A DNA stretch of 64,000 bases. Origin: Vitis vinifera (Eukaryota > Streptophyta > Magnoliopsida > Vitales > Vitaceae). The stretch is from positions 22,943,501 to 23,007,500 of the forward strand of contig NC_081808.1 in NCBI RefSeq assembly GCF_030704535.1, given 5' to 3'. Below are positions 4,901-59,230 of this stretch, in pieces. Numbering within the stretch: position 1 is the first letter of the stretch; each line of letters begins with the position of its first letter. A model generated the notes under the pieces. That model was not told where the DNA came from and did not search any database. It saw only the letters and a program-made list of their open reading frames with translations. The position numbers and the translations under genes are program-made.

Positions 4901-6543
4901 CTCTTCTTCATATACAGTATAATCTAATATCTACTAAGCTCTCCTTTTTCTCAAAATATAAAGTTTAAATTAAGACTGTAACTTGGTGGGTTCAACCTGA
5001 CCAACCCAATATTTGGACAGATGTGGGCAAGGTTTGAATGATTTAGGGTTGGGTTTGGGTTAGAAAAATATCAACCCAAAAATATTAGAGTTGACATGGG
5101 TTAAAGGTTGAGACAACCATTTAACCCGAACCATGGATCATTTATTTATTTATCTATTTTTAAGTATATTATATATTATTTTATTAAAACATAAAAAAAT
5201 GAAAATAATAGGAAAAAAACTTTAATCTATCCAAGTTTTATTTATATTTGGATAAAAGTTTTATTATTTTTCGTTAATTGTTAAAGTGTTTGAAGTTTAA
5301 GTTTATTAGGGGCATAAATTAATAAAATCGATTCGGTCTATTTTTGAGTTAAAAATGAATAAACCGATGTCATCGATTTATATGCAATAAAAATCGAATC
5401 GACCAAATTTAAAGTAAAAAATTAAATCAAATTAAGCCTTTCAAGGTTGGTTCAGTTTGGCTTTTGTGAATCAGTTTTGATAAAACTTAATGACATTTTT
5501 TAGTTCTTAACCTAATTGTAAATTTTTATTTATTTTAAATTCAAATCCCCATTAATTTGAGTTTATATTAGACTTTAAGTCTAATTTGATTTTAAAACTA
5601 ATTAAAATCAACTTAGATTTGATGTTAAAAATATATTGCATGTATTTAAAATTAATTTGCCCCTAATATAAAAACAATGAATTACTAAAATATAATATAA
5701 TATAAAAAAAACTTATTAAATGTCAAACAATTATATATAACTTTTAAAATATTGGTTTGGTACAATTTTTATCGGTTAAAAGACAAAATTAAATAAAAAA
5801 AGTAAACCGTTAAGGTCAATTTTCAAAATTTTCATATAAAAAATAAAAGTGAACCAATATGATCGATTTGAAAAAGTTTGTTAGTTTTTTTCAATTTTGC
5901 TTACAATCCTAAAATTTATAAAAAGCCGTGGGAGCCCAAATTATCCACGGGCTTGGCATTGGTTAGGATTTTCCAACTTAACCTTGAATTGGGTTTGAAG
6001 TAGTTTGACAAGGATTAAATCCACAACTTTCTACTATCCTTGGGAAAGGTTATAAATCCCCCCACCAAAACTCTCTTCTCTCCTATCCAAGTTTATTTTA
6101 ATATTTTTTTTAAGGATAAAATTACCCCCCTAAGTGAAAGACCATTTTACCCTTACACATTCACCTTCCTCTTCCTCTTTTCATTTTTCCCCATCCTACC
6201 CATATAACCCTAAGAAAAAAATATGTTTTAATGGATAAGCAAACCATCCTCTCTAATGATGTTAGAAGTGAAGAGATATGGTTTTTGAAAAAAATTTAGC
6301 ATTTTTTTTTTTCAAAGCATATTTTGATGAAGGGTATCAAAGGAGGATCTAGAATCATAAATTTGAATAATTACAAATTGTTTGGAAGTATATTTTTTGA
6401 CACTCTTTATAGCTTTCAAAATTATACTTTTGAATGCTTAAGAAACATCTAGAGGCATAGTTTCAGACACTATAAGGAGTATATAGCATTGACTCTTCAA
6501 GCAACTATATATATATTTTTTTTGTTAAAGTTTTTTTATAATC

Positions 6544-28878: not shown

Positions 28879-31426
28879 CTACTGGGACAAGGAGTTTGCG
28901 ACATCTATCACAAACCGGTACTTGACATCAGATTTGGAAAGCCGCTTCATGGCCGTGTTAATGTAGTCCATCTGGATCAGCTCAATGTCTGCAGTAATAT
29001 TGTGTTTTGCACAAAAGTCTAGCATTTCCTGTGTCTCTTTAATCCCTCCTATGTCACTTCCCCCAATGAGCTTCCGCCCTGTGAGTGTTGCAGTGAAATG
29101 GAACATGTTAAAAGACATTAATAAGCATGACTGGAAAAAGTTCTGGGTAAAGTTCTCTAAAGTGGAGGGTGTTTTCACTTATGTAGCTTACCCATAACTA
29201 ATGGGAAGATAGGCAGTTCCAGGGGTTTATCAGGCAAGCCCACAGTGATCAATTTTCCATTCAGCTTCAGCATGGCAAGGAGAGGACCCAGGGAATGAAT
29301 TGCAGACACTGTATCGATGATGTAGTCCATAGTACCCAGAGCCGCCTGGACAATAGAAGTAAAAAACAACTGTTGTTTGAATCCATATTTAATTAGCAGT
29401 CAAATTTAACTTTTAGGTGCTGATTTTTGTCAAATGATAAATCACCACAATGGAAACCACATGCAGATAATTCTATGTCTTAATTTGGGATGAATGAGCT
29501 TGGTTGAAAATAGATTTCCCCTGTATCTTCAGTTATGACTGAAATAAATAAATTTGGCCTCCCATTAGGGCTGCCAATGGAACAAGTCTAACAAAAAACA
29601 ACCTAATATAATCCAACTAAATCAAGATATGATGCACCGCGTGCTGAGTAAAAGTTCCCAATGTAATGTAGGTACCATCAGACTAATATTTGCTTAGATC
29701 TCTATTACAATTCTACTGAATTTTTAAAAGCAAACCTCTGCCATACCTGCACTTTTTCAGGGTTGGTGGAAACAAGGAAACAATCAGCCCCAAGTTTGTT
29801 AATCGCTTCATCCTCCTTGTTTGGCGAGGTACTAATAACAGTAACCTTAAGTCCAAATGCCTTGCCCAATTTCACGGCAACATGACCAAGCCCACCAAGT
29901 CCTGCCACTCCCAAATGTTTGCCTGGCTCGGTCATTCCATAGTATTTCATTGGGCTATACACTGTTATTCCAGCACAAAGTAGCGGTGCCCCTGCATCTA
30001 AGGGCATGTTATCAGGAATGCGGAGCACATACCGCTGGTCAACAACCACTATATCGGAATAACCACCATAAGTCCTCGTCCCATCTTGAGAAGTGGAGTT
30101 ATAAGTAAATATCATACTGGGGCAGTAATTCTCCAAGTCTTGTTGGCAAGTCTCGCATGTCTTGCAAGAGCCCACTAAGACACCAACCCCAACTCGGTCA
30201 CCCATTTTGAATTTCTTCACATTATTTCCAAGTTGGATCACAATGCCAACAATTTCATGCCTGCACGAAAACATTCAAAAGTATTACCAATATGAGTTCC
30301 TTTAACATGCCTGAGGTTGGTTCGTCTTATTTTTAGTAACTTTCTCTTTTTCCATACAAAAATCTCTTACTCCAATTGAATTTTCTGCTATTTTCTATAT
30401 ATTTTTATCAAAACCAAAATCAAGGTGAAACCACATTGAAAACCTCATGCAACTTTGAATGCTTATACTTTTATGCACACATGCAGATCCATTTGCTGTG
30501 AATACACCGCATATATAGAAAAAACAAAAGAAGAACAGAAAGATGAAGCTATAAAGGCTTATTTACCTAGAGGCTCGCCCCAACCCACACACACCTATCC
30601 CCTCCTCAGTGTACGATACCTTGAATTCACATTTTGAGCTACCTCAACCATGTAGTCTCACACCCTTATTTTCCAACAAAGTTGGGCTGTGTTTGGTTCT
30701 GAAGGATAAGGAAAGCAGCCCAAAGGAAATGCAAGCAAAGGGGAAGGAATAAAATTTTCCTCCACCCTTTCCCAACTTTCCCCGCTTTCTTTTTAACATG
30801 GAAAACAGGGAGTTCTGAAAGCTACATTTTCTCCTAATTTCATCTTATTTCCAACCAATATATATATATCATCCATTTTTTTTTCCTTTCCTTCCTTCCC
30901 AAGATCCACACAGAGCACAAAGGTCATTATAAAATAAATATATGCTGCTTTCTTGAATCATAACGTCAGTTAACACAACCAAATGATAATAATAATAATA
31001 ACAACAAAATGTATCTTGAAATTAACATTAGAAAATGGTGGAAGAAGAGCATCATACCCTGGAACAATAGGGTACCTAGTGATCCCCCATTCATTCTTAA
31101 CAGAATGCAAGTCGGAATGACAAACCCCACAATAGAGGATCTTGACTGTGACATCCTCATCACCATTTTCTCTGCCAACCATACAAACAATATCTCAACA
31201 AATATTATTTGAACCAATTCTTCCAGATTAAAAACAGATAACATCAATTTTATATTCTTTGATGATGAATTCAAAAAGTTAAGCATACAAAGAAAAAGAA
31301 CCCATAACAAAAATGAAAGGAAAAGCACCTTCTTGAGAAATGGAATGGAGAGAGAGTCCCAGAGGGATCTCTCGCAGCCCAGCCAAAAGCCTTCTGTGGG
31401 TGTTCTTCTTCTGGGGATTTCACCAT
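28879..31426 (-). CDS. Cinnamyl alcohol dehydrogenase-like (CAD9/mannitol dehydrogenase type), copy 1
   Basis: Five exons, 31426-31329, 31171-31058, 30260-29747, 29345-29192 and 29078-28879, give 359 residues. Zinc-dependent medium-chain dehydrogenases of this group reduce aldehydes to alcohols with NADPH in the cytosol. The catalytic zinc ligands are C50 (CGVCH), H72 and E73 (PGHE), and C166. The structural zinc ligands are C103, C106, C109 and C117 ([16 protein letters not shown]). The nucleotide loop GLGGLG is at 191-196. The start [20 protein letters not shown] matches Arabidopsis CAD9-type and 'probable mannitol dehydrogenase' proteins rather than the main lignin CADs. Substrate cannot be told from sequence. 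A paralogue with identical exon sizes lies at 35057-37488, with a collapsed copy in between. Confidence 0.93.
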
Positions 31427-35056: not shown

Positions 35057-37488
35057 CTACTCTGACAAGGACCCCGCCACATCGATCACAAACCTATACC
35101 TGACATCAGATTTGGCAAGTCGCTCCATGGCAGTGTTTATGTAATCCATCCTTATCATCTCGATATCTGCAGTAATGTTGTGCTTGGCACAGAACTCCAG
35201 CATTTCCTGTGTCTCTTTCGTGCTTCCTATATTACTTCCCCCAACAAGCTTCCGCCCTAAAATCAAGCATCATAATGGAAAACGGGGTACATAAGAACGC
35301 ATCCTTAGGGTCCATCGATGGAGTGTCGCATGTGTTTAATTATGCAAGTATAGCTCACCCAAGACCAGAGGGAAGATAGGCAGCTCCAGGGGCTTTTCGG
35401 GCAAGCCCAGAGTGATCAGCTTTCCATTCACCTTGAGCAGCCCAAGAAGAGGACCCAGGGGATGGACTGCAGCCACCGTGTCGATGATGTAGTCCATGGT
35501 ACCTAAAGCTGCCTGCACGGTCCAATCCAATTCAAGTTTTCTTAGAACTCTCATCCAGGGAAAGTATTTTGTCAAGCTAATTCCATGGAGTACTCATAAG
35601 TCATACCTTCATTTTTGTAGGGTCAGTGGAGAGAAGGAAGGCATCGGCGCCGAGCCTTTTGATGGCGTCATCCTTTTTATTTGGCGAGGCACTGATAATA
35701 GTAACTTTGTGCCCGAATGCCTTGCCTATCTTCACCGCAACATGACCGAGGCCTCCAAGCCCAGACACACCCAGATGCTTGCCTGCCTGAGTCATTCCAT
35801 AGTATTTCATTGGGCTGTAGACTGTGATCCCAGCACAGAGTAGGGGCGCACCGGCAGCCAAGGGTAGGTTATCAGGGAAGCGAAGAACAAAGTGCTGATC
35901 AACCACCACCATATTAGAGTAACCACCATAGTTCTTGGTGCCATCATGATATATGGAGTTGTAAGCGAACATCATTTTGGGGCAGTAATTCTCCAAGCCC
36001 TGCTTGCAACTCTCACACGACCTGCAGGACCCAACCATCACCCCCACCCCAACTTTGTCACCCAATTTGAATTTCTTCACATTCTTCCCCAGTTTGGTCA
36101 CTATGCCCGTGAATTCATGCCTGCACGACAACACTTAAACTGCTGTTTTCTTTTCTAGAGTATGATTTCTTCATATATGCAATATTAATCAGTAATCACA
36201 GAGGAAAAATAAAAGAATGTAAATCCACAAACTTCGAAGTGAAGAGAGAATACCCGGGAATAATGGGGTACCTAGTGAAACCCCAGTCGTTCTTAATAGA
36301 ATGCAAGTCTGTATGGCAAACTCCACAGAAAAGGACTCTTACTGTGACATCATCAGGACTATTTTCTCTGCCAAGGATTTAAGAAATATTCCAATCAGGA
36401 AATGGTAATTAATAGCAATACTAGAAACTCCAACATGTAATAATAATAACTAAAATGTTTGGATTGAGTTTGCTTATATGCTTAAAACAATCAATTTACC
36501 ATAACAAGATAATAAAAACTTAAATTAACCACACAAAATTAAACAAAAAGCCAATCAACTTATCAAAATAGCATAATAAGGGTTAGAGCACGTTTGATAG
36601 TGATAATTGAAAGTGTTTATAATATTTTCAATATTTGAAAGATACAAATTTTCAAATGTTTAAAAGTCTAAAAACACTTTCTATAATTATTATTAAATGC
36701 ATTATTAAAAAGTCTAAAAAAAAAAAATTCAAGAAGTGAGTAGATATATTTTCATGTATAAAAATAAAGGTATTTAATTTTGTAAGGGATTCTCTTGAAT
36801 CACCTTTTTTTTTTAATTCTTATTTTAACAATAATAAAATTCCACATGTCAAATTATAAAAGTGTTTTTTTTTTATCTTTTTTTATTATTTAAAGTACAT
36901 TTGGTACTAATTTTAAAAATTATTTTTAAAATTTTTAATACTTTAATGATAAAAATTTTAAATATTAAAAAAATTAGAAGTGTTTCTTAAAATCACTATA
37001 TCTCTTATTTTATTTTTCACTTTAAAGAATCATTTATTTTATTTCCCAATTTTAAAGGAATCAAAAGAAAGAAGTGGTGACTCCCTCTATCTTATTCTTT
37101 CTTTTTGGTTTCCTAAATTTGAAGTTAGTGGAGAAAATAGAATGAATAGAAAAAGAAAGAAAATGTTACATCTCTAACTAACCAAATTCCTATCATACGA
37201 TCTTTGATGAAGCAAAAAATCTATGGAGAAATAAACACTAAAGATGAAAAGAAAAAAGATGGACATACAAGGAAACCGAAAAAAAAACTGTGTTATTACC
37301 TTTGAGATTCCGTAATATTTTCTAATTAAACATAGAAATAAATTGCAATATGCAAAAAAAATAACACAGAAAAATAGAAAAAGAAAGTGCCTTCTGGAGA
37401 AATGAAAGGGAGAGAGGATCCCAGAAGGGTCTCTTGCAGCCCAGCCAAAGGCCTTCTGTGGGTGTTCTTCTTGTGGGGATTTGGCCAT
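35057..37488 (-). CDS. Cinnamyl alcohol dehydrogenase-like (CAD9/mannitol dehydrogenase type), copy 2
   Basis: Five exons, 37488-37391, 36367-36254, 36120-35607, 35512-35359 and 35256-35057, have the same sizes as in copy 1 (98, 114, 514, 154 and 200 bp) and give 359 residues. All zinc ligands (C50, H72, E73, C103, C106, C109, C117, C166) and the GLGGLG loop are present. The protein starts [20 protein letters not shown]. Intron 1 begins with GC (AGAAG|GCACTT) where copy 1 has GT (AGAAG|GTGCTT). Intron 1 is also much longer here, about 1 kb, and very AT-rich. The reading frame is intact, so the GC donor is probably used. Substrate specificity is unknown. Confidence 0.93.
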
Positions 37489-39534: not shown

Positions 39535-41040
39535 AAAATTTTATTTTAAACATGTCATGAATAGTCTCAATTCACTTAATGAAATTTTATTCAATTCCTT
39601 CAATGAAATATATTTCTTTTATAAAAAGGAGTATTTATATATGATTGTAATTACATTCCTTGCCTTATGTTTAAATTATTTTATAAAAAGAAATATTAAT
39701 AAACTTATATGTGATTGCAATTAGATTGTTTAGATTATATTTAGTTATCATAAAGTTCTAAAGAAAAAAGAAATATTATGGAAAATGATTTCTTATATTT
39801 AATTGTATTATAAAACTATGAGAAAATTAAATATAAAAATTACAAAAAATTTATACATTTTTAAATTATTTAATTTTTATATAAAAATTTAAAATAAGTT
39901 AAATAAGTTTGAAATAGTATATAAAAATAATTTATAATTGATTTTAAATCTATTCTTTATTTTCTTATCTTTTTCTTTCCTCTTATTTTTCCTTCCTATT
40001 TTGTTTCTTTCACATTTTTCAAGAACCAAGTATAGTCTTATAGAATAATAATAAAAAAAAAAAAGTCAATAGGAATATTTTTATAAATATTTTAGTGAAA
40101 AAGTTATAAGAGATATGAGTTTGTAAGCACTATATGTGGTAGATAGGAAATGTGAAGAAAAGCCAAAGACACCCTATGGAGTACCCTTGTTCCATTAAGT
40201 ATAAATGTGAGAAAGGATGAGAGACACTTGATGGTTGCTAAGAGCTCCTAGTTCAAGATAGAAATACAAAAGATAAGAAAAAATTAAATATTTCGAGATC
40301 CAAAAGTTGCATTTGTTTCTATTCTCTATTATATAATGAAATTTTCTTTTTCATCCATAGAAGTTGAAATATGGAAGAGGACATAATTGACCGAATCAAA
40401 CCTTGTATGATTTATAGATGATTTTACTTGTATGTTCTTCTTATTAACATGTTTGCATCATAGTTTCCACATGCCCAACATAAGAGAGCTCATCTTGTTG
40501 GTCTTGAGTTGTCATGCTCTACCCACAAATTGCTCTAGAATTTTCCAAGTCCATAAATGACATCTTTTCTACATAGTAGTTTGAGTTGTATAAGCTACTC
40601 ATAGGTGTTGGCAAAAAGTCCTAATTCATCCTAACACAATACTCAAACTTTAGCGTTTAGAGCTCATAGGGTATAAAACTTTTAATATCTAACTATTTCA
40701 TAATATAAAAAATTCATGCTAGTTTTGATAGATCATAATACTGCCATTAGAAGCAAGTGATATATCTCTATTTTTATTTCGAAGTAGGAAATCCTATCAC
40801 AATTAGCAAATATAGACTTAACATTTCATAAAATTAATAGATTTGATAGAGGTTAATTACAATTTACATGGTATTCATGTCAACAACCTTGAATAGTTTA
40901 TCAATAAGCTCATCTTAATTTTTTTGACAAATTGTTTTAAAAATAAATTAATTTATAATTGGTTTTATTTTAAGTCTTAAATTAGTGAAATGAAAATAAT
41001 TTTTAAAAATAATTAATTTATAATCCATATAACCTTCATT
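39535..41040. repeat. Segmental duplication, unit A (left part)
   Basis: This AT-rich stretch, from CATGTCATGAATAGTCTCAA (near 39551) to about 41040, matches 57120-58560 in the same order, including the words CCCAACATAAGAGAGCTCAT and TCATCCTAACACAATACTCA. A shorter match lies at 45770-46290. It has no coding content. Confidence 0.75.
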
Positions 41041-43400: not shown

Positions 43401-43605
43401 GTTCGATAGAAAAATGATCACACGGCAATAAACCTTGCTCAACTATTATTGATCAACGTAGGTATACGTTTTATTGCACTTCAACTGTCAACGTACTTTG
43501 TACGCATTTAGCAAAGAACCGGTAAAATAGAACAAATTTCATGATAGAAGGGCTAAAACAAAGACCCTAAAAAAATTTGATGCAAAGAAAATAACTAAAA
43601 TGAAG

Positions 43606-45169
43606 CTAATGAGTCTTATTTTGATCATCCAATAGTGGGAGCTTCCCACAGTCATAGTCTGCAATGCCAATAAGCCTCTTCAAAACAAACCTATAAAATA
43701 TCATATCTCTGAACATCTTCATCAACCATCCTTCTCTGCCTACCTGCGCCCACCCTGAAAAATATGACCCTGCTATCAACCAAGCAGCGCGCCACCTCCT
43801 TTCCTTCACGTATCCCTCTATGGCTTCGGCCACCGCTCCTGGCACCAGCCTCCCGTTATCAATGAATGATTTTCCGATGTGGCGGCCTAGGACAACTGCG
43901 TCCTCCAGGGCTGCACAACCACCCTGGCCTAGGTCAGGGGTCATTGGGTGCATGGCATCACCTACCACTGTCATGTTCCCTTTGCTTACATTTCCAAATA
44001 TGAGGTCCCATGGAAGTCTCAGCCTCAGTGGAGCCAAAGTCAAGGTAGAAAGATCGCAGTGGCGGACCACTTCAGCGTATATTGGAGGGAGGTCCTTGGC
44101 ATAATTCTCAATCACTTGTTTTTGTATTTCTTGCGGGTCTTTTGTCATGGTCTCACCTGACATCAAAATGATATCATTTATGTTTATAAAGCAAGGACAA
44201 TAATGTGAGTAATGTCATGAACAAAAAATTTCCAGCCAAGCCACAGTGTTACACCGGCTTGGAATTGCCACTAGTGACCTGAATTTTACTCAGAGATATT
44301 GGCATAAAGTTGTGGCGATAACAAAACCAACCTTTAGGAGTATTGAAAGTGAGGAACCAGTAAATATCTTTATCATTTAGAGGGACGATGCCAGCCCTTT
44401 TGCCCACATCCAAAAATTGCAGCACATGCTCACGCACGCCATGACCCTCTGGAAACACCGCCAGCGCAACCACAGACGATCGACCTGAGTTCACCGGCTC
44501 GGTCAGTCCCAATTTACGAGCCACAAACGAGTTCACCCCATCACACCCTATCAAAACCTGTAACACCCAAAAATGAAAATTCTGGCATTAAAATGAAGAA
44601 TCTATAGTAATCACCATTATGTGATGCAGATAAGCCAATGCACATGGGGCTCAACATGGGCTGACGTTACATACCTTGGTTGTAATCACAGTTCCATCTT
44701 CCAAGCGTATGGTATATGGACCTTCTTGGGCCTGGGCTTCAATGGAGATGGGCTTGGATGAGAATCGGATCGAGTGGCGTGGCAGCTCCTCTGCCAGACT
44801 CTCGAGTAACGCCTTGCGATGTACTGTGATGGGTCCACCTCTGCTTCAGATTTGACAACCAATCAGATCATTCCATATTCATTTTAAGTCACGGCGATCA
44901 TCCAATGGGCTCACCCCAGTGGACTCACAAGTCAGAAGTCGGTGGAAGTTAACATAAACCGGAAGATACTATCGAATAAATAGAGGTATTTAATTTTTCG
45001 CATTCTTACCTATTGTTTCTAATGAGGGAGACTTCTTGGACCGCTCCAGTGGCAACATTTGTTATGCACATCCTAGTCACAAACAAAAACATCAATTTAT
45101 AATAATCACAACAATTCTTATCATTTCTAAATAAAATCTGTTTTTGTATGAACATTTTTCTTGTTGATA

Positions 45170-45200
<31 letters not shown>

Positions 45201-45474
45201 GGAACAAATGATATAGGAGGAAAATGAAAGAATAAAAATCATACTTTTCGCGGACGGCATAGAGGGGAGTGAGTTTATGGGCGACACCCAGGGCATCAAG
45301 AGCGAGCCAAGCATTTGGGGCGAGGGTGAGAGCAGCACCAGAGACTCGGAGGCCATCAGATCTCTCCAGCACCAATGCCCTAATCCCCACCCTTTTGAGC
45401 GCGATCGCGGTGGCCAGCCCAGCTATTCCTGCCCCCACTATCACTATTTCTTCCTCCAGTACCATCTTCTCCAT
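43606..45474 (-). CDS. FAD-dependent monooxygenase (MO1/CTF2, UbiH-like), copy 1
   Basis: Five exons, 45474-45245, 45072-45010, 44840-44675, 44557-44332 and 44156-43606, give 411 residues with consistent phases. The FAD-binding GxGxxG is VGAGIAG at residues 13-19. The GCDGVNS (DG) motif is at 157-163. The second FAD motif, GDAMHPMTPDLGQGG, starts at 294. This is the single-component aromatic-ring hydroxylase type (PHBH fold) known in plants as MO1/CTF2 or 'FAD-dependent urate hydroxylase-like'. Substrates of the plant proteins are not established. The start was set at MEKMVLEEE, which is conserved in copy 2; three codons upstream there is another in-frame ATG. The C terminus has no clear targeting signal. 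Copy 2 at 50114-52201 has identical exon sizes. Confidence 0.92.
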
Positions 45475-45533
45475 ATCTCTCACTTCTCTTTAATTTTCTA
45501 TCTTGCATAATCATACCTCTCAACTTGCTCTAT

Positions 45534-45542
45534 CCTTATATA
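45534..45542 (-). promoter_or_regulatory. TATA box of monooxygenase copy 1
   Basis: The minus strand reads TATATAAGG, 60 bases before the start codon. The same site in copy 2 is interrupted by the 3.7-kb foldback element. Confidence 0.7.
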
Positions 45543-45769: not shown

Positions 45770-46290
45770 ATTAGTCCAACGTGTCGTGAAAGGACTCAAT
45801 TTCTTAAATGGAATATATTTCTTTTATTCAATTCCTTAAATGAAATATATATATATATATTTTTATATAAAAGGAATATTATTATAATTGTTTTCCTTAG
45901 TTTATGTTTGGATTATTTACAATGAGAAATATTCAGAAGTTTACATTAAATTTCTTTGATTATTTGTTTGTCAGGAAGTTCTAAATAAAAAAAAATATTA
46001 GGGAAAATAAATTTTTATATTTGACTCTATCATAAAAAATATAAACAAAAAAATATAATTAAAAGTAGTAAACAATTTATATATTTTTAATTATTTAATT
46101 TTTATATAAAAAATTAAAATAAGTGAAATTTTGAAATGATATATAAAAATAATTTATTAACTTTAAATCTCTTTTTTTTTTCTTTAATCATATTTTCTTT
46201 CAAATTTTTAAAAGCCAAATTAATATTATAAAACAAAGAAATTTCATAGAAATATTTTAGGGAAAAAGTTATGAATGATGTTAAAATTTA
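45770..46290. repeat. Segmental duplication, unit B (left part)
   Basis: The segment matches the beginnings of units A (39560-40110) and C (57130-57670), for example CTCAATTTCTTAAATGGAAT and AGTTATGAATGATGT. The match stops near 46300, shortly before the 0.9-kb hairpin. Confidence 0.65.
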
Positions 46291-46458
46291 GTATACTTTT
46301 AGAGCTGGGGCACGCTCCTGGAAACCGGTCTTTTGAGACTTTTAGGTTCTCTGTTTTTTCACCCTTTTTTGACCTTTCCACCCTTCTGGAAAGTGGGCTG
46401 GCAGGGTGACACGTAGTAGGGGAGAGCTTTTTGAATTTTGCTTTTGACATATTGAAAC

Positions 46459-47359
46459 TGCATTTCTTCCTTCTCCTTCCACCCGCACACCCATCACCGT
46501 CGACCCATTGCCGGCGAATTTGCCGTCTGCCACTCCGTCGGCCACTTCTTCGGCCAGCGGCACCCCCTTTCTCCCTTCCCTTTTTCCTTCTTTCCCTATT
46601 TCTCTTTTCTCTCTCCATTCTACCCACCATACCCATTTTTCCTTTCGTCCAACTACTGCTGCTACTCACTGCCGGCCAGCGACGTCATGGCATCAGTGCG
46701 GCTCATGGCTCGACCTTGTTGCCGATGCCCACGGTTGCCCCCACCAAGACCCATACCTCCAGTTTCTATTTTTTTTTTAAATAACTTTTTAGAAAATAAT
46801 AATAAAAGATGAAGGATGAGAGAGAGAGGCCATTTTGAATAAAAGATTCAAAAGTGGGCCAAAATCCACTTTTGTTTGGTTAAAGAAGTTATTTTTAACC
46901 CAATCTGAAGCTGGTTTTTAAGAGAGCTGTAGGAGTTTGGGTTAAAAATAATCTCTTTAACCACCATCTTTTAAATCTTTTGTTCAAAAGGTCTCTTTCT
47001 CTCCCAGCATCTTTTATTATTATTATTTTTAATTATTTTTTAAAAAATTATTTAAAAAAAATAAGAATTGAAGATGGAGGTGTGAGTCTGGGTGGGGGCA
47101 ACCGTGGGCATTATCAGCAAGGACGGCATGACATCGTTGGCTGGTAATGAGTAACAATCGGAGTTTGAGGAAAGGAAAAATGGGTATGATGGATAGGATG
47201 GAGAGAGAGAAGAGAAATAAGGAAAGAAGAAAACATACAAAAGGAGAAGGGGTTGAAGTCGACTGAAGAAGGGGGAACAGAGTGGCCGATAGTAACGTCG
47301 CCAACGATGGATGGGTCCATGGTGATGGGTGTGCGGGTGGAAGAGAAGGAAGAAATGCA
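46459..47359. mobile_element. Imperfect hairpin (inverted repeat) of about 0.9 kb
   Basis: Two arms of about 430 bp face each other around 46909. The outer words are TGCATTTCTTCCTTCT (left) and its complement ending at 47359. Shared inner words include CCACCCGCACACCCATCACC, ATACCCATTTTTCCTTTC and ATGCCCACGGTTGCCCCCAC. The arms differ by very roughly one base in five. They are far richer in C and G than the surroundings. Frames within are proline- and serine-rich and look like chance. The type is unknown: a foldback element, or an inverted duplication of captured sequence. Confidence 0.7.
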
Positions 47360-47439
47360 TTTTTAATTTTAAAAAATAAAATAGAAGAAGGCTAATTTGA
47401 ACAATTGTTTCAACACAGACCTAAAGTTGATTTTTTGTT

Positions 47440-49975: not shown

Positions 49976-50113
49976 TATATATATATATATAACTGTCAAC
50001 GTACCCATTTAGCAAAGAACTGGTAAAATAGAACAAAATTCATATCAGAAGGGCTAAAACAAAGACCAAAAAAAAAAAAAAAAAATGACAGAAAGAAAAT
50101 AAATCAAATGAAG

Positions 50114-52201
50114 CTATTGAATCTTATTTTGGTCATCCAGTAGAGGGAGCTTCCCACAGTCATAATCTGCAATGCCAATAAGCCTCTTGAAAAGAAACCT
50201 ATAGAATATCACATCTCTGAACATCTTCATCAACCATCCTTCCCCACGTAACTGCGCCCACCCTGATATATATGACCCCGTTATCAACCAAGCGGTGCGC
50301 CACCTCCTTTCCTTCACGTACTCCTCTATGGCTCTGGCCACCGCTCCCGGCACCAGCCTCCTGTTATCAATGAATGATTTTCCGATGTGGCGGCCTAGGA
50401 CAACTGCGTCCTCCAGGGCTGAACAGCCACCCTGGCCTAGGTCAGGGGTCATTGGGTGCATGGCATCACCTGCCACTGTCATGTTCCCTTTGCTTACATT
50501 TCCAAATATGAGGTCCCATGGAAGTCTCAGCCTCAGTGGAGCCAAATTCAAGGTAGAAAGATCGCAGTGGCGGACCACTTCAGCGTATATTGGAGGGAAA
50601 TCCTTGGCATAATTCTCAATCACTTGTTTTTGTATTTGTTCTGGGTCTCCTGTCATGGCCTCACCTGACATCAAAATGATATCACTTATGTTTACAAGGC
50701 GTAGACAATAATGAGTAATATCATGGACAAAACATTTACCAGCCAAGCCAAAGTGTTACACCGGCTTGGAATTGCCACTATATCTCTTAGGACTCTGGTG
50801 AGCTGAATTTTACTCGGAAATATTGTCATAAAGTGGTTGGCAAAGACAAACCAACCTTTAGGAGTATTGAAAGTGAGGAACCAGTAAATCTCTTTATCAT
50901 TAAGAGGGACGATGCCACCCCTTTTGCCCACATCCACAAATTGCTGCACATCCTCACGCACCCCATGACCCTCTGGAAACACCGCCAGCGCAACCAATGC
51001 CGATCGACCCGAGTTCACCGGCTGGGTCAGTCCCAATTTACGAGCCACAAACGAGTTCACCCCATCACACCCTATCAAAACCTGTAACCCCCAAAAATGA
51101 AAATTCTGGCATAAAAATGAAGAATCTATAGTAATCACCATTATGGGATATGAGGATGAGCCAATGAATATAGGGCTCAACCTGGGCTGATGTTAGATAC
51201 CTTGGTTGTAATCACAGTTCCATCTTCCAAGCGTATAGCATATGGACCTTCTTGGCCCTGGGCTTCAATGGAGATGGGCTTGGATGAGAATCGGATTGAG
51301 TTTCTTGGCAGCTCCTCTGCTAGACTCTCCAATAACGCCTTGCGATGTACTGTGATGGGTCCATCGCTGCTCCAGATTCGACAATCAATCAGATCATTAC
51401 ATATTCATTTCGGTCATTTTGAAAAGTGACCACAGAGAAAGGGTGATCATCCAATCCGCCCACCCAATTGAAAATATATATTTAAGAATCCCACTTTCCA
51501 CTATCCAATAAACAGAGGTATTTGATTTTGAGCAGTCTTACCTATTGTTTCCCATGAGGGAAACCTCTTGGACAGCTCCAGTGGCAACATCTGTTACGTA
51601 CGCCCTACTCACAAACAAAACATCAATTAATAATAAGCACAGTAATTTCTTATTAATAATATTTTTAATATTTTCATATGGCTTCCATGCTAGTTTTTTT
51701 TTTTTTCAAAAATTAATTAATAAATTATATTTCCTTGAAGTGACTGCATCAGAATTTCATGAGGAAACCATGGCAGGACAAAATCCAGAATCTACACCTA
51801 CTCACAATTCACAAGTCGTTGTTAATGGTAGAATTCAGTATCAAAGAAAAAAAAACTTAAAAGCAAAACATAAACTCCTGCTGGAATTATTTTCTTATTC
51901 ACATAAAATAATTGCTATGTCTGGAATTTGTATACTGAAATAGGAGAAAAATGAAAGAATAGAAATCATACTTTTTGCGGACGGCATAGACGGCAGTGAG
52001 TTTATGAGCGACGCCCAGGGCATCAAGAGCGCGCCAAGCATTTGGGAAGAGGCCGAGAGCAGCACCAGTGGCTCGGAGGCCATCAGATCTCTCCAAAACC
52101 AACGCTCTAATCCCAACTCTTTGTAGCGCCACCGCGGTGGCCAGCCCAGCGATTCCTCCCCCCACTATCACTATTTCTTCCTCCGGTACCATCTTTTCCA
52201 T
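50114..52201 (-). CDS. FAD-dependent monooxygenase (MO1/CTF2, UbiH-like), copy 2
   Basis: Five exons, 52201-51972, 51604-51542, 51366-51201, 51081-50856 and 50664-50114, have the same sizes as copy 1 (230, 63, 166, 226 and 551 bp) and give 411 residues. The FAD motifs VGGGIAG, GCDGVNS and GDAMHPMTPDLGQGG are all kept. By eye the protein is about 90 per cent like copy 1, and no lesion is seen. The chosen start is MEKMVPEEE. A frame continues upstream with further ATGs, but copy 1 does not support these. The 3.7-kb foldback element ends only 67 bases upstream of the ATG and has broken the TATA region. The gene may thus be silent or under new control even though it can still code. Confidence 0.92.
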
Positions 52202-52267
52202 CTCTCTCTCACTTCTCTTTAATTTTCCATCCCGCATAATCATACCTCGCAACATGTTCTGTCCTTA

Positions 52268-55200
52268 GGACTTTTCTCAATAGTACAGCAATTTAAAAAA
52301 GTTATGCTTAAATTACTGTACTGGCAGAAGTTATTACAAATATAGGGTAGTTTTTGCCACATAGGAGAGAGGAGAGAGGAAAGAGGAGAGAGGAGAGAGG
52401 GTGAGAGAAGAGAGGAAAGAGGAGAGAGGAGAGAGGAGAGAGGGTGAGAGAGAGGAGATAGGAGAGAGGAGAGAGGAGAGAGGGTGACTGTAAAAAAAAA
52501 GCAAACTCGTCTTTTGAAGAGACGAGTTCCATGAAAGAAGAGAGGAAAGAGGAGAGAGGAGAGAGGAGAGAGGGTGACTGTAAAAAAAAAGCAAACTCGT
52601 CTTTTGAAGAGACGAGTTCCATGAAAGAAGAGAGGAAAGAGGAGAGAGGAGAGAGGAGAGAGGGTGAGAGAGAGGAGACAGGAGAGAGGAGAGAGGAGAG
52701 AGAGTGTGTAAAAAAAAGCAAACTCGTCTGTTGAAGAGACGAGTTCCATGAAAAAAAATATATATATAATTTAAAAAAAATTCTAAACAATTATTCAAGG
52801 GAACTCGTCTCTTGAAGAGACGAGTTCCATGTAAAAAAATCCCAAATTTAAAAGAAAAAAAAAATTTCCAAAAAGGGAACTCGTCTCTTCAAGAGACGAG
52901 TTCCATGTAAAAAAAAAAATATTTTTTATTTTAAAAAATCCCAAATTTAAAAAAAAAAAAAAAATTCCAAAGGGAACTCGTCTCTTGAAGAGACGAGTTC
53001 CATGTAAAAAAAAAATATTTTTTAAAAAATATAATTTTTATTTTAAAAAATCCCAAATTAAAAAAAAAAAAAAATCCAAAGGGAACTCGTCTCTTCAAGA
53101 GACAAGTTCCATGTAAAAAAAAATATATTTTTAAAAAAATATATATATTAAAAAAAAATCCCAAATTAAAAAAAAAAAAAAACACACAATTCCAAAGTGA
53201 AGAGACGAGTTCCATGTAAAAAAAAATATATTTTTTAAAAAATATATTTTTTATTTTAAAAAATCCCAAATTTAAAAAAAACAAAAATAAATTCCAAAGG
53301 GAACTCGTCTCTTGAAGAGACGAGTTCCATGTAAAAAAAAAAATATTTTTTTAAAAATATATATATTAAAAAAAAAATCCCAAATTAAAAAAAAAAAAAA
53401 AACACAATTCCAAAGGGAACTCGTCTCTTCAAGAGACGAGTTCCATGTAAAAAAAAATATATTTTTTAAAAAATATATTTTTTATTTTAAAAAATCCCGA
53501 ATTAAAAAAAAAAAAAAAATTCCAAAGGGAACTCGTCTCTTCAAGAGACGAGTTCCATGTAAAAAAAAAATTATTTTTTTAAAAATATATATATATTAAA
53601 AAAAAATCCCAAATTAAAAAAAAAAAAAATATTAATTCCAAAGGGAACTCGTCTCTTAAATATATATATATTTAAAAAAAAAAAAAAAACAATTCCTCAA
53701 AATTCCTAACAGACGAGTTCTCATCTAAAAAAAATATTTTTTAAATATAAAATTTCAAGAGACGAGTTCCTTTAGGAAAAAAAATATATTTTTTAAAAAA
53801 TATATTTTTTATTTTAAAAAATCCCAAATTTAAAAAAAAAAAAAATTCCAAAGGGAACTCGTCTCTTGAAGAGACGAGTTCCATGTAAAAAAAAATATAT
53901 TTTTTTAAAAATATATTTTTTATTTTAAAAAATCCCAAATTTAAAAAATAAAATAAAATAAAATTCCAAAGGGAACTCGTCTCTTCAAGAGACGAGTTCC
54001 ATGTAAAAAAAAAATATTTTTTATTTTAAAAAATCCCAAATTAAAAAAAAAAAAAAAATCCAAAGGGAACTCGTCTCTTTTTTTTTTTTACATGGAACTC
54101 GTCTCTTCAAGAGACGAGTTCCCTTTGGAAATTTTTTTTTTTTTTTAAATTTGGAATTTTTTAAAATAAAAAATATATTTTTTAAAAAATATATTTTTTT
54201 TCCTAAAGGAACTCGTCTCTTGAAATTTTATATTTAAAAAAAAAATATTTTTTTTTAGATGAGAACTCGTCTGTTAGGAATTTTGAGGAATTGTTTTTTT
54301 TTTTTTTTTTTTTTTTTTAAATATATATATATTTAAAAAAATATTTTTTTTTACATGGGAACTCGTCTCTTGAAGAGACGAGTTCCCTTTGGAATTAATT
54401 TTTTTTTTTTTTAATTTGGGATTTTTTTTTTAATATATATATATTTTTAAAAAAATAATTTTTTTTTTACATGGAACTCGTCTCTTGAAGAGACGAGTTC
54501 CCTTTGGAATTTTTTTTTTATTTTTAATTTGGGATTTTTTAAAATAAAATATATATATATATATATTTTTTTTTTTAATTTGGGATTTTTTAAAATAAAA
54601 AATATATTTTTTAAAATAAAAAATATATTTTTTAAAAAATATATTTTTTTTTACATGGAACTCGTCTCTTCAAGAGACGAGTTCCCTTTGGAATTGTGTT
54701 TTTTTTTTTTTTTTTTTTTTTAATTTGGGATTTTTTTTTTAATATATATATTTTTAAAAAAATATATTTTTTTTTACATGGAACTCGTCTCTTCAAGAGA
54801 CGAGTTCCCTTTGGAATTTATTTTATTTTTATTAAATTTGGGATTTTTTAAAATAAAAAATATATTTTTTAAAAAATATATTTTTTTTTACATGGAACTC
54901 GTCTCTTCACTTTGGAATTGTGTGTGTGTTTTTTTTTTTTTTTTTTTTTAATTTGGGAATTTTTTTTTAATATATATATTTTTAAAAAAATATATTTTTT
55001 TTTTACATGGAACTCGTCTCTTCAAGAGACGAGTTTCCTTTGGGATTTTTTTTTTTTTTTTAATTTGGGATTTTTTAAAATAAAAAATATTTTTTTTTTA
55101 CATGGAACTCGTCTCTTCAAGAGACGAGTTCCCTTTGGAATTGTGTGTTTTTTTTTTTTTTTTTTTTTAATTTGGGATTTTTTTTTAATATATATATTTT

Positions 55201-55972
55201 TAAAAAAATATATATTTTTTTACATGGAACTCGTCTCTTGAAGAGACGAGTTCCCTTTGGATTTTTTTTTTTTTTTAATTTAGGATTTTTTAAAATAAAA
55301 AATATATTTTTTAAAAAAAATATTTTTTTTTACATGGAACTCGTCTCTTCAAGAGACGAGTTCCCTTTGGAATTTATTTTTTTTTTTTTTAATTTGGGAT
55401 TTTTTAAAATAAAAAATATATTTTTTAAAAAATATTTTTTTTTTTACATGGAACTCGTCTCTTCAAGAGACGAGTTCCCTTTGGAATTTTTTTTTTTTTT
55501 TTTAAAAAAAAATTTGGGATTTTTTAAAATAAAAAATATATTTTTTTTTACATGGAACTCGTCTCTTCAAGAGACGAGTTCCCTTTTTGGAAATTTTTTT
55601 TTTTTTTTAAATTTGGGATTTTTTAAATTAAAAAATATATTTTTTTAAAAATATATATTTTTTTACATGGAACTCGTCTCTTCAAGAGACGAGTTCCCTT
55701 GAATAATTGTTTAGAATTTTTTTAAAATTATATATATATTTTTTTTCATGGAACTCGTCTCTTCAAGAGACGAGTTTGCTTTTTTTTTACAGTCACCCTC
55801 TCTCCTCTCTCCTTTCTCCTCTTTCCTCTCTTCTCTCACCCTCTCTCCTCTCTCCTATTTCCTCTCTCTTCTCTCCTATGTGGCAAAAACTACCCTATAT
55901 TTGTAATAACTTCTGCCAGTACAGTAATTTAAGCATAACTTTTTTAAATTGCTGTACTATTGAGAAAAGTCC
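52268..55972. mobile_element. Giant foldback element built from palindrome-bearing tandem units
   Basis: The outermost 100 bases are nearly perfect inverted repeats (52268-52366 and 55875-55972; GGACTTTTCTCAATAGTACA at the left end). Inside follow purine-rich AGAGAGG repeats, then on each side a dozen or so tandem units of about 110 bp. Each unit has a 29-bp palindrome with 14-bp arms (GGAACTCGTCTCTT) around one G or C, then A/T homopolymers and a CCCAAATT or AATTTGGG word. The orientation of the units flips near 54.0 kb, so the whole is one hairpin. Aligned with the sister gene's promoter, the flanks show a 3-5 bp target duplication (CTTA core). There is no transposase; the long frames are low-complexity artefacts. 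It is non-autonomous, and I cannot name its superfamily. Confidence 0.9.
52366..52720. repeat. GAGAGAGGA-type purine tract, expanded on the left arm
   Basis: Repeats of AGAGAGGAGAG and AGAGGAAAGAGG alternate with three AACTCGTCT-type palindromes preceded by GGGTGACTGTAAAA. The matching tract on the right arm (55797-55875) is only about 80 bp with one palindrome, so the left arm has been amplified after the hairpin formed. Confidence 0.8.
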
Positions 55973-56030
55973 CTTATACATACCCGCACATAAGCTTGGG
56001 CTGCACCTTTTTCATTTTCAATATGTTTAA
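55973..56030 (-). promoter_or_regulatory. Displaced promoter DNA of monooxygenase copy 2
   Basis: CTTATACATACCCGCAC and AAGCTTGGGCTGCACC match, in order, the DNA just upstream of copy 1 (CTTATATACACACTCG and CAAGCTTGAACTGCACG, 45536-45580). This is the original upstream side of copy 2, now 3.7 kb from the gene. Confidence 0.7.
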
Positions 56031-56039
56031 TATTTAAAT

Positions 56040-57115
56040 ACGATTTTTACCATTTTCTTTTCATATTTAAATAATGTATATATTTTCATTATTTTGTTTA
56101 ATAAATTAAAATATTAATATATTTATATAAAAATGAATAAATAATATTACAAATATGATTAATTTTTAATTATATGTATTTAAAATTATTTTTAATTTTA
56201 ATAAAATATAAATTATATATTTATAATGTCATTGGTTCGATCGCGGTTTGACCATCAATCCGATTAGTGAACCGTGAACCTATAATTTTTTCGGTTTAAT
56301 GTCCGATTAGATTCGATTCTGAAAACATTGATCCATTCTATTCAATTCAAGTTCAACTTAATCTTATTTTTCTAAATTTGGATTAAATTTAGGTTAATTG
56401 AGTTTAACTTAAGTTGATCATATTAAACTCAAGTTGATTAAAGTAGACTCGAATTGGCTAGATTGATTAGGTTACCTAATTCAAAATCTATCCATAATAA
56501 ATTTTTTTAAATCTTTATATTTATACCAAAATTTAAATAATTATTAAGGAGTTTACATGAGAGATAGAATGTGGAGAAAACAAAACAAAGCATAACAGAG
56601 GAGATATAAATTTTTTCATGAGAGAGATAACATATTTTTCTGGTTTCTTTTTTTTTTTTTTAGTTAACTCTAATTTTGTTCTTCTAGAATATTTTGTCTA
56701 ACAATAATAAATAGGACAAAATTTAGAGATAATAATAAAAAAGTAAAAATAAATTTAAATAGTAAATAAGACAAAATTTAAAGATAACAATAAAAAATAA
56801 AAATAAAAATAAATTTATATATATTTTCTAAAAAATGAAAATATATATAATATAATTATAATTTGATATTTTTTAATATAAAAAGAAAATGAATATCATT
56901 ATATAGGATATAAACATTAAATTGAATTTAAATTAGAGTCAGGTTGTTTGAACCTTGACTCGAGCCTAACCCAAATTGAGTTAGAATTGAGAAAATTTAA
57001 CCTAAACTCAATTTAAGTATTGAAAATATTTACCCAAATCTTGTTCAAACATCATATTAGATTACATCCAATTAGGTTCAGATCATGTTAGGGCAACCTA
57101 TTCAAGTTGTATCCT
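56040..57115. other. AT-rich spacer
   Basis: No gene is recognised. A patch at 56220-56460 with GGTTCGATCGCGGTTTGACC and CCGATTAGTGAACCG resembles old plant transposon DNA, but no ends were found. Confidence 0.4.
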
Positions 57116-57119
57116 TAAT

Positions 57120-59230
57120 TCTAACATGTCATGAATAGTCTCAATTTCCTTAGTGGAATATATTTCTTTTATTTAATTCTTTAAATGAAGTATATTTCTT
57201 TTATAAAAAGGAATATTTATATGTGATTGTAATTACATTTCTTAGCTTATGTTTGAATTAATTTATAAAAATAAATATTAATATATTTATATATAAGTGT
57301 AATTAGATTCCTTAGATTCTATTTGGTTTTAAAAAAATTCTAAAGAAAATAATGTTAATGAAAATGATTTCTTATGTTTAATTATATTATAAAAAAAATG
57401 AAAAAAAAATAAATAAAATTAAAATTAGTAAAAAACAAAAACTTATATATTTTTAAATTACTTAGTCTTAATATAAAAATTTTTAAAAAAAAGTGAAATA
57501 AGTTTAAAATAGTATATAAAAATAATTTATTAATGTTAATCCATTTTTTTTTCTTTTCCCCCATTTTCTTTCTTTCATATTTTCTCTCATATTTTTTTGA
57601 ACCAAATATAGAATAAAAAATGTCAATAAGAATATTTTTATAAATATTTTAGAGAAAAAGTTATGAAAGATGTGAATTTGTAAGCACCATGAATAGAAAT
57701 GTGAGGAAGAGCTATGGATCGACTACCCTTACTCCATCAAGTATAAAAGTGAGAAAGAGTGAGAGATACTTGATAATTGCTACAAACTCGTGATTAAGGG
57801 TAGATATATAAAGAATGGGAAAAAAAATTCAATAGTTGTATTGGTTTTTATCTTTTATTGTATTCTCGATTTTTTTTTTTCATCCATGGAGGTAAACATA
57901 ATTGGCTTAATCAAACCTTGTATTATGTGTGAATGAATTTATTTTTATGTTCCTCTTGGTAATATGTTGGCATCAAGAAGGCTTCGACGTGCCCAACATA
58001 AGAGAGCTCATCTTGCCAATCTTAAGCCGTCCTGCTCCTACCCACCAATTGCTCTGGAAATCCACACCTTATCTCCATTTTACTTTGAGTCGTATGAGTA
58101 ACCCATAGCTACCGGAAAGTTTCCTAGTTCATCCTAACACAATACTCAAGTTTTAATCTTTGATAGCTTATAGGCAAAAAAAAGCTTTTAATATCTATCT
58201 ATTTCATAATAATAATAATAATAAATCATGTTGGTTTTAATAAATGTTAATATTGCCATAAGAAGTAGGTGATATCTCTCTATTTTTATTTAGAAGTAAT
58301 AATTTTTGTCGCAATTAGAAAATACACACTAAATTTAACATTTCACAAAATTAATAGGTTTGATACAGATTAATCATAATTTACATTGTATTTATGTCAA
58401 CAACCTTAAATAGTTTATCATTAACCTCATCTTATTTTTTTTAAATAAATTAATTTATAATTAGTTTTATTTGAAGTCTTAAATTAGTGAAATGAAAATC
58501 ATTTTTAAAAATAGTTAATTTATAATTCATATAAATTTAAATACTTAAATGAGTTAAACGAGTCTTAATCGTATATAAATATATCAATTATTAATAAATA
58601 GATAATTATTATAATTTTATATTAATTTAATGTAATTTAATCCAATCTAATTCTACTTATTTATTAATCGAGTTGTACCGAATCTCATGTTAAATCTATG
58701 TAAAAAAATTGATAATTCTAAGTTAAAAAGACGAATGAGCCATTTAATAAATTTTACGATGTTTTAATTTAGACATTATAAGAAAGAAAGCAAAGAATTA
58801 TTCATCAAAAAAAAAAAAGAAAGAAAGCAAAGAATCAATCAAAGAGGCAATATTTTGAATCTCCTCTTGAAGTAGGCGTTGTAGTGGGTGATTTTCAAAA
58901 GTTGCATTTGGAATTTTGTTTTGATTTTTCAATGTGACTTTGCTGGGAATCTTACAAGTTCCGTGGTTTGAATATTCTCTCTCTTCTACATTATTCTAGA
59001 AAATGACATCTTAATTCAATTTGAAATAAATCAAAGTATGATTTTATTTCAAAATTTAGATGGAAAAGAAAAATTCTATTGGAGACCTGCAGGTGGATGA
59101 AAGAGGTGTGAGGGTTCCACCGTAGCCATCCCCAAAGGTCGGAGGGTTTAGACTGATTCCAAGGAGTCGTATAATTCATGGTACCATCTATTCATCCATG
59201 TGGAGTTTTATGTGAACATCATTTTAGAGT
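57120..59230. repeat. Segmental duplication, unit C (no monooxygenase gene)
   Basis: It matches unit A at 39550-41040 and 42600-42930 in the same order and orientation. At about 59165-59228 it ends in a CAD exon 3 shred (minus strand) with CATGGTACCATCTATTCATC and GTGAACATCATTTTAG, a part of exon 3 different from that kept in units A and B. The monooxygenase that would be expected to follow is absent. Confidence 0.7.

Follow-up and report, generated by a model that had tools for sequence, protein, structure and literature searches.

Palindrome arrays in a foldback element of the grapevine genome and in its Mutator-like relatives

Introduction

Here we describe a foldback element of 3,705 bp (positions 52268-55972) in a 64,000-nucleotide stretch of the grapevine Vitis vinifera (contig NC_081808.1, positions 22,943,501 to 23,007,500; the whole stretch is referred to as the window), the arms of which are arrays of palindrome-bearing units. 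Foldback-type Mutator-like elements (MULEs) have been described as Tm1 in root-knot nematodes, Muta1 in Aedes, FARE in Arabidopsis and MuTAnT in Medicago (PMC3169594, PMC5225508, PMC4486113), and, as these reports present them, they resemble the family of the window element in that their autonomous copies encode a Mutator-type transposase, derivatives without genes exist and the inverted ends are built of internal repeats. According to the same accounts, Tm1 and Muta1 have target duplications of 8-9 bp and carry direct repeats of 12-15 bp, whereas the window element has a 29-bp perfect palindrome per unit of ~110 bp; Muta1 has an additional 10-bp imperfect terminal palindrome; MuTAnT targets TA repeats; and FARE is credited with 'long palindromic repeats' in the words of papers that cite it, a likeness of description and not of sequence. 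Palindromes inside long ends do have a precedent, because Mcmar of Meloidogyne chitwoodi is reported to carry them in its ends (PMC3169594), although Mcmar is a Tc1/mariner element rather than a MULE.

Two further groups of MULEs, as their descriptions have it, resemble the window family in other respects. The MUDRAVI2/MUDR groups (PMC6446971) and the Mutavine families (PMC2528002), which have grapevine members, combine a SWIM-finger MULE transposase with an antisense gene encoding a plant mobile domain (PMD). The terminal inverted repeats (TIRs) of Mutavine-1 and -2 are given as 70 and 180 bp, and their duplications, where found, as always 9 nt (PMC2528002); neither 'foldback' nor 'palindrom' occurs in the main text of that report, and the window family could be a Mutavine or Repbase grapevine MULE under another name. 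VANDAL elements are likewise MULEs whose non-coding regions contain short motifs in tandem repeats; these motifs vary from one related family to another, and the arrays are reported to be bound by the element's own anti-silencing protein, VANC (PMC5735166, PMC10398659). The VANC motifs measure 8-9 bp against 29 bp for the palindrome, and the word palindrome is absent from PMC5735166. Moreover, VANDAL TIRs are described as degenerate, while the two 95-bp ends of the window element are identical to each other and to both ends of 8 of 30 other copies. MURA is reported to reduce the methylation of the ends of Mu copies that lack genes (PMC10398659). Finally, Galileo of Drosophila is described as having long foldback-like ends in which tandem repeats hold extra transposase binding sites, although it belongs to the P superfamily, with a THAP domain, and not to the MULEs (PMC3688188). 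By analogy, Galileo and VANDAL offer the best parallels for putative binding arrays. Foldback MULEs, MULEs with antisense PMD genes and a mariner element with palindromes in its ends are therefore already known; in the open-licence literature, with Repbase outside the comparison, we found no description of a palindrome in each unit of long MULE arms, or of a second palindrome type with altered outer base pairs.

Results and discussion

A sequence-only reading of the window had proposed two mirrored arms with about two dozen palindromes in units of roughly 110 bp. Indeed, allowing up to 4 mismatches across 28 arm positions, we found 25 palindromes of 29 bp with the formula GGAACTCGTCTCTT-S-AAGAGACGAGTTCC, 19 of which are perfect; the left half holds 12 and the right half another 13 in mirror orientation, the unit number being that of the assembly rather than of sequencing reads. 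Each unit of ~110 bp includes an A/T-rich spacer. Successive palindromes lie 76-326 bp apart, and the family median over the 31 copies considered below is 116 bp. The half-site GGAACTCGTCTCTT had 61 matches in the window at up to 3 mismatches, 58 of them within the element, compared to a mean of 3.4 and a maximum of 8 in shuffled windows; shuffle and reversed-pattern controls rule out a chance origin of the palindromes. As a small correction to that reading, the outermost palindromes are imperfect (three on the left with 3 mismatches each, one on the right with 2); 8 of the 58 half-sites stand alone. The inverted ends of 180 nt are complementary at 98%, with a GA-rich stretch opening the left end and a CT-rich stretch the right, and long, internally repetitive inverted ends fill most of the element, as in foldback elements generally.

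The suspected hairpin potential was borne out by predicted folding. As single-stranded DNA, one palindrome reached -13.5 kcal/mol (z -5.6 relative to shuffles), and the central 1.2 kb as RNA reached -578 kcal/mol, a value with no shuffle control at this length, chiefly as a single long duplex with a few small hairpins. For positions 52276-52320, around the imperfect palindrome of the left terminal repeat, the advantage over shuffled sequence was weak (z -1.76), and 11 of 200 shuffles folded as well.

The element had also been taken for a transposable unit with conserved ends and a short target duplication, and its insertion site agrees. It is flanked by a 4-bp duplication (CTTA), and a paralogous gene start and promoter 6.7 kb away (45209-45538), 88% identical to 51936-52267, lacks the element and runs on directly at its insertion point, which confirms the limits of the insertion; past ~50 bp, the right flank gave no convincing alignment to the paralogue.

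We searched the genome from which the window comes, which comprises 21 contigs and 495.6 Mb, with the terminal 27 bp and with the palindrome. The terminus had 266 matches at up to 3 mismatches and the palindrome 1,960 at up to 2, with none for either reversed-pattern control; judged by the 266 termini, the family has more than 100 copies. We read 31 copies in detail, namely that of the window and 30 others picked because both their ends were listed, a non-random sample. Target duplications of 10 bp (up to 1 mismatch) were present in 20 of the 31, 15 of them perfect, and other lengths were rare (9 bp in one copy, 6 bp in two, and the 4 bp of the window copy). Since many sites bear duplications of their own, an assembly artefact is rejected for the element as such. 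The copies with 95-bp ends identical to those of the window copy point, by this sequence measure, to a recent spread of its subfamily. Mapping of six copies gave between 1 and 55 palindromes per cluster.

Autonomous relatives, which it had also been proposed to look for, were found as five long copies (13.6-22.0 kb, on C3, C7, C9 (two) and C13) with a transposase and a PMD stretch. The 860-aa transposase of a C9 copy contains MULE (3.2e-18), DBD_Tnp_Mut (4.1e-11) and SWIM (5.8e-9) domains, the Pfam families being PF10551, PF03108 and PF04434, and a second, convergent frame in this copy contains the PMD (3.6e-55). Convergent transposase and PMD frames occur in the C7, C9 and C13 copies, the PMD itself having been tested in the C9 copy. 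Among the 58 genome matches listed for the 860-aa protein, those that are full-length, 100% identical and free of stops are the query itself (C9:1847649) and C7:150030. The latter lies in a 14,090-bp copy flanked by a perfect duplication of 10 bp; the left 95 bp of this copy are the same as those of the window element, and its right 95 bp differ at 2 positions. The five long copies carry arrays in three places, at either end and in the interval separating the convergent genes; in the C7 copy, the left end has 24 palindromes, the interval 9 and the right end 1.

The window copy, by comparison, has the family ends and the palindrome arrays without a transposase or PMD gene. On the PMD side of the C7 long copy, a stretch of 4,605 bases, it matches only the first 384, which lie outside the gene frames. 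On the transposase side it covers 254 bases out of 4,679, and no match listed there is longer than a repeat unit of 111 bp. Thus, the matches listed between the window copy and the long copies fall in ends and array-type sequence rather than gene frames, as expected of a gene-less MULE derivative. We assign the family to the MULEs because of its 10-bp duplications, within the ~9-11 bp of MULEs (found in the family, not in the window copy alone), and because autonomous copies with the same ends contain the transposase; moreover, the PMD gene is antisense to the transposase, as in the MUDRAVI2/MUDR groups. On these sequence grounds, the window element is a non-autonomous foldback copy of a Mutator-like family. 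The family had not been recognized at first and now has a class, while the design of one palindrome per unit is still one that we have not found described in the open-licence literature searched.

We then asked how well the palindromes are conserved, using units with up to 4 mismatches and leaving lone half-sites uncounted. From 775 palindromes, 70 of unclear orientation were dropped, and in the resulting 705 oriented units arm positions 3-14 and 16-29 were 95.9-100% conserved. Outside the arms, conservation fell to 61-73% at downstream positions 1-5 and to 61-86% at the twelve positions upstream of a conserved AAAG. Between unit pairs, the arms differed by 1.7%, 1.5% and 1.8% per site where the flanks differed by 1.6%, 4.2% and 8.3%. 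Similarly, in 23 copies of less than 7 kb, an alignment of one half with its mirror image (units with up to 2 mismatches on both sides) showed differences in 61 of 4,060 arm columns, relative to ~17% outside the arms, a figure inflated by alignment noise in A/T runs. One contributing copy (C7:2679707-2683438) holds 2,500 N, an assembly gap or masked stretch, and its palindrome count and its share in this comparison are unreliable (624 of 30,005 columns with N). Both counts cover recognizable palindromes only. In an unfiltered count of 1,433 perfect half-sites from the 31 copies, 1,231 partners had 0-2 mismatches, 31 had 3-7, and 171 had at least 8 and were counted as lost. Thus, partners are either near-perfect or lost, and the palindrome is conserved beyond most of the surrounding sequence.

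CpG-site transitions within palindromes (53 of 3,100) differed too weakly from those at other G/C arm sites (46 of 4,650) to serve as evidence of methylation. Each half of a palindromic auxin response element is built on a TGTC core; arrays of such elements are rejected for the window family, in which positions 7-10 read CGTC. We also saw hardly any sign of symmetric arm repair within the family, as complementary double changes were found in 2 of 775 units at positions 3-14, with 5 more at position 2.

A second type of palindrome accompanies a related transposase. Downstream of a 69% identical transposase (C3:10483088) lies an array of 16 palindromes with a sequence unlike that of the window family, exemplified by TGAAAGTGTCTCTT-G-AAGAGACACTTTCA, which have TGTC where the window family has CGTC. 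The inner core GTCTCTT-N-AAGAGAC (core GTCTCTTNAAGAGAC) is common to both types, and their inner 15 bp are nearly alike. With this one array beside the 69% relative, the window family has what VANDAL families have, non-coding motif arrays that differ between related families. Upstream of the same transposase is a tandem repeat array (positions 4198-6433 of the locus sequence) without GTCTC-type palindromes. Searching the genome for the core while barring the window base at position 7 on both sides yielded 656 places (control 0). Among the first 50, whichever family each belongs to, which carry all our second-type statistics, the arms were complementary at position 7 in 50, at position 6 in 42 and at position 5 in 35, and the commonest pairs at positions 5, 6 and 7 all differ from the window arm. 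That a related family has its own altered palindrome suggests that the palindrome is a working part.

On balance, we think it probable that the window element is a non-autonomous foldback MULE moved in trans and that its palindromes are sites, as yet predicted, for a dimeric protein encoded by the element. The transposase of long copies would act in trans on the ends of the window element and move it by cut and paste, and each palindrome would be a putative site for a dimeric protein of the long copies, candidates being the transposase itself and accessory or anti-silencing factors, for example the PMD product. The arrays would multiply putative sites in non-coding parts of the element, such that gene-less copies could still recruit the protein; they would lengthen and shorten through unequal exchange, and the palindrome core would occasionally invert by hairpin formation or mispairing. 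The array between the two genes of the long copies speaks for a role that may go past end recognition.

Several observations weigh against this. Sequence outside the arms is conserved too, namely the upstream AAAG (93-100%, although AAAG served among the motifs that oriented the units) and a downstream A run at positions 6-11 (91-99%), and homogenization through unequal exchange could likewise keep units similar. For the second type, complementarity at position 7 is partly selected by the search, which barred the window base there; over all seven outer positions of the first 50 places it shows no excess (252 of 350, compared to 250.2 in shuffles, standard deviation 6.5); and at least one of the 50 (C2:4606744) falls by its coordinates in a copy of the window family. 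Two other transposase relatives, C5:22053823 (79% identical) and C10:9705146 (64%), showed no palindromes in their flanks over 7.3-7.8 kb to each side, and for the 69% relative there were none over 6.6 kb in the upstream direction. Palindromes beside every transposase relative are therefore ruled out, there being none near two of the three examined, and the arrays are not universal. With 12 stops, the C5 transposase copy may be decayed; the C10 relative has none. Finally, no target duplication was found in 7 of the 31 copies, and that of the window copy is 4 bp instead of 10.

The central base of the palindrome bears on how the arrays change. In unit orientation, 423 of the 705 units have G there, 279 have C, 3 have A and none has T; the A-centered units were left out of pair counts. 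Of 145 mirrored pairs within elements, 60 differed at the center (59 as G versus C), compared with C-G differences in 3 of 1,985 G/C arm columns. With rising flank divergence, the center differed in 1 of 26, 22 of 174, 34 of 155 and 195 of 573 unit pairs, which are not independent. The core behaves as if it inverted repeatedly, through a hairpin or mispairing, and the central base may keep a record of how palindromes have inverted within a plant chromosome. It is quite conceivable, however, that the G/C variation stems from one old change followed by recombination inside palindromes. The variant is indeed linked to the flanks in close pairs, with the single difference among the 26 pairs having identical flanks and the 22 among the 174 with 1-3 flank differences, and a CTCTA arm variant has C at the center in 19 of 19 units. 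Yet in close pairs the center differs about 8 times as often as a flank site (12.6% versus 1.6%, again in pairs that are not independent), and for the second-type form GGAAAG...CCTTTA, which can be oriented by its asymmetric arms, 5 of the 8 places among the first 50 show G and the other 3 show C. Repeated inversion and a single old change alike need the palindrome as a site of exchange.

A broader proposal, which we advance tentatively, is that the arrays are landing platforms for a dimeric element protein, either the transposase or an anti-silencing factor resembling VANC, that protein and palindrome co-evolve across MULE families with coordinated changes of the outer base pairs in the two arms, that gene-less copies would thereby stay open and mobile, and that hairpin extrusion in vivo would invert the center. 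One genome offers two palindrome types around a common core, open-frame transposases and more than 100 copies; it thus becomes testable which element protein reads the arrays, and whether that protein changed along with the palindromes.

We considered that the palindromes might have no bound protein and be kept by mutation and repair, the arrays being passive by-products of foldback growth, in which perfect palindromes stand out from the A/T-rich DNA as stretches of identity that are recopied via unequal exchange, conversion or template switching. The wide range of palindromes per cluster would fit this, as would flanks common to unit pairs across elements, a center that behaves as if inverting, and the conservation of AAAG and the A run. 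Nevertheless, we regard it as rather unlikely: conservation drops in the remaining flanks while the arms stay near-invariant, and complementary double changes are rare, such that repair seldom makes the arms symmetric, yet the second palindrome differs symmetrically at three pairs.

It is improbable that the arrays act as RNA, with hairpin transcripts feeding Dicer-like enzymes and gene-less copies silencing autonomous ones as a natural counterpart of Mu killer: the predicted folding (5.6 standard deviations better than shuffles for one palindrome as DNA, and the uncontrolled value for the central 1.2 kb) would allow it, but small RNAs from the window copy would reach little beyond ends and arrays, because its listed matches to the C7 copy miss the PMD frames and show no transposase gene, and a hairpin needs complementarity and no fixed sequence, whereas the inner 15 bp are near-identical in both types.

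Neighboring genes and minor observations

The features of the element and its insertion site are collected in Table 1. A gene for an FAD-binding oxidoreductase has its start codon, as judged from the sequence, at ~52201, with the element ~67 bp away on the upstream side; this gene and the element-free paralogue form a natural pair for studying effects on the promoter. This gene is one of two duplicates (43483-45538 and 49991-52267; 86-88% identical).

Table 1. Coordinates of the foldback element, its flanks and the element-free paralogue in the window
Feature	Position	Strand	Remarks
Element-free paralogous gene start and promoter	45209..45538	.	Alignment spans the joined flanks
Frame with first exon of FAD-binding oxidoreductase gene	51899..52264	-	Pfam PF01494/PF01266
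Left target-site duplication, CTTA	52264..52267	+	Family norm 10 bp
Left terminal inverted repeat	52268..52447	+	Outer ~95 bp unique sequence, then GA-rich
Imperfect palindrome within terminal repeat, AGTACAG...CTGTACT	52282..52322	.	Read from the sequence
Left array, 12 palindromes of 29 bp, A/T-rich spacers	52502..54000	+	
A/T-rich junction of the two arrays, one lone half-site	54001..54093	.	
Right array, 13 palindromes, mirrored	54094..55778	-	
Right terminal inverted repeat	55793..55972	-	
Right target-site duplication, CTTA	55973..55976	+	

Some copies of the family have features of their own. Short duplications abut perfect ends exactly in the window copy (4 bp), C3:9007518 (6 bp) and C12:17585486 (6 bp). 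In a C6 copy, the right flank starts with a second, near-complete terminal 18 bp, as though the end had been duplicated. A 14.3-kb copy (C10:8375229-8389571) holds a 1,493-aa frame, recognized by eye as retroelement-like, which is probably a nested insertion, and a 24.4-kb copy with a perfect 10-bp duplication (C15:16310819-16335188) has only 6 perfect palindromes and different inner frames. A search of virus contigs for relatives gave 0 palindrome matches and confirmed no transposase relative.

Elsewhere in the window, two alcohol dehydrogenase duplicates (29742-30279 and 35602-36139) are 77% identical. Similar frames lie on opposite strands at 46410-46812 and 47029-47420, and the interval 46400-47420 is perhaps another inverted-repeat element, for which the self-comparison of the window printed no pair. 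A dispersed repeat has three copies (39541-41032, 45775-46284 and 57115-58534) with 71-74% identity.

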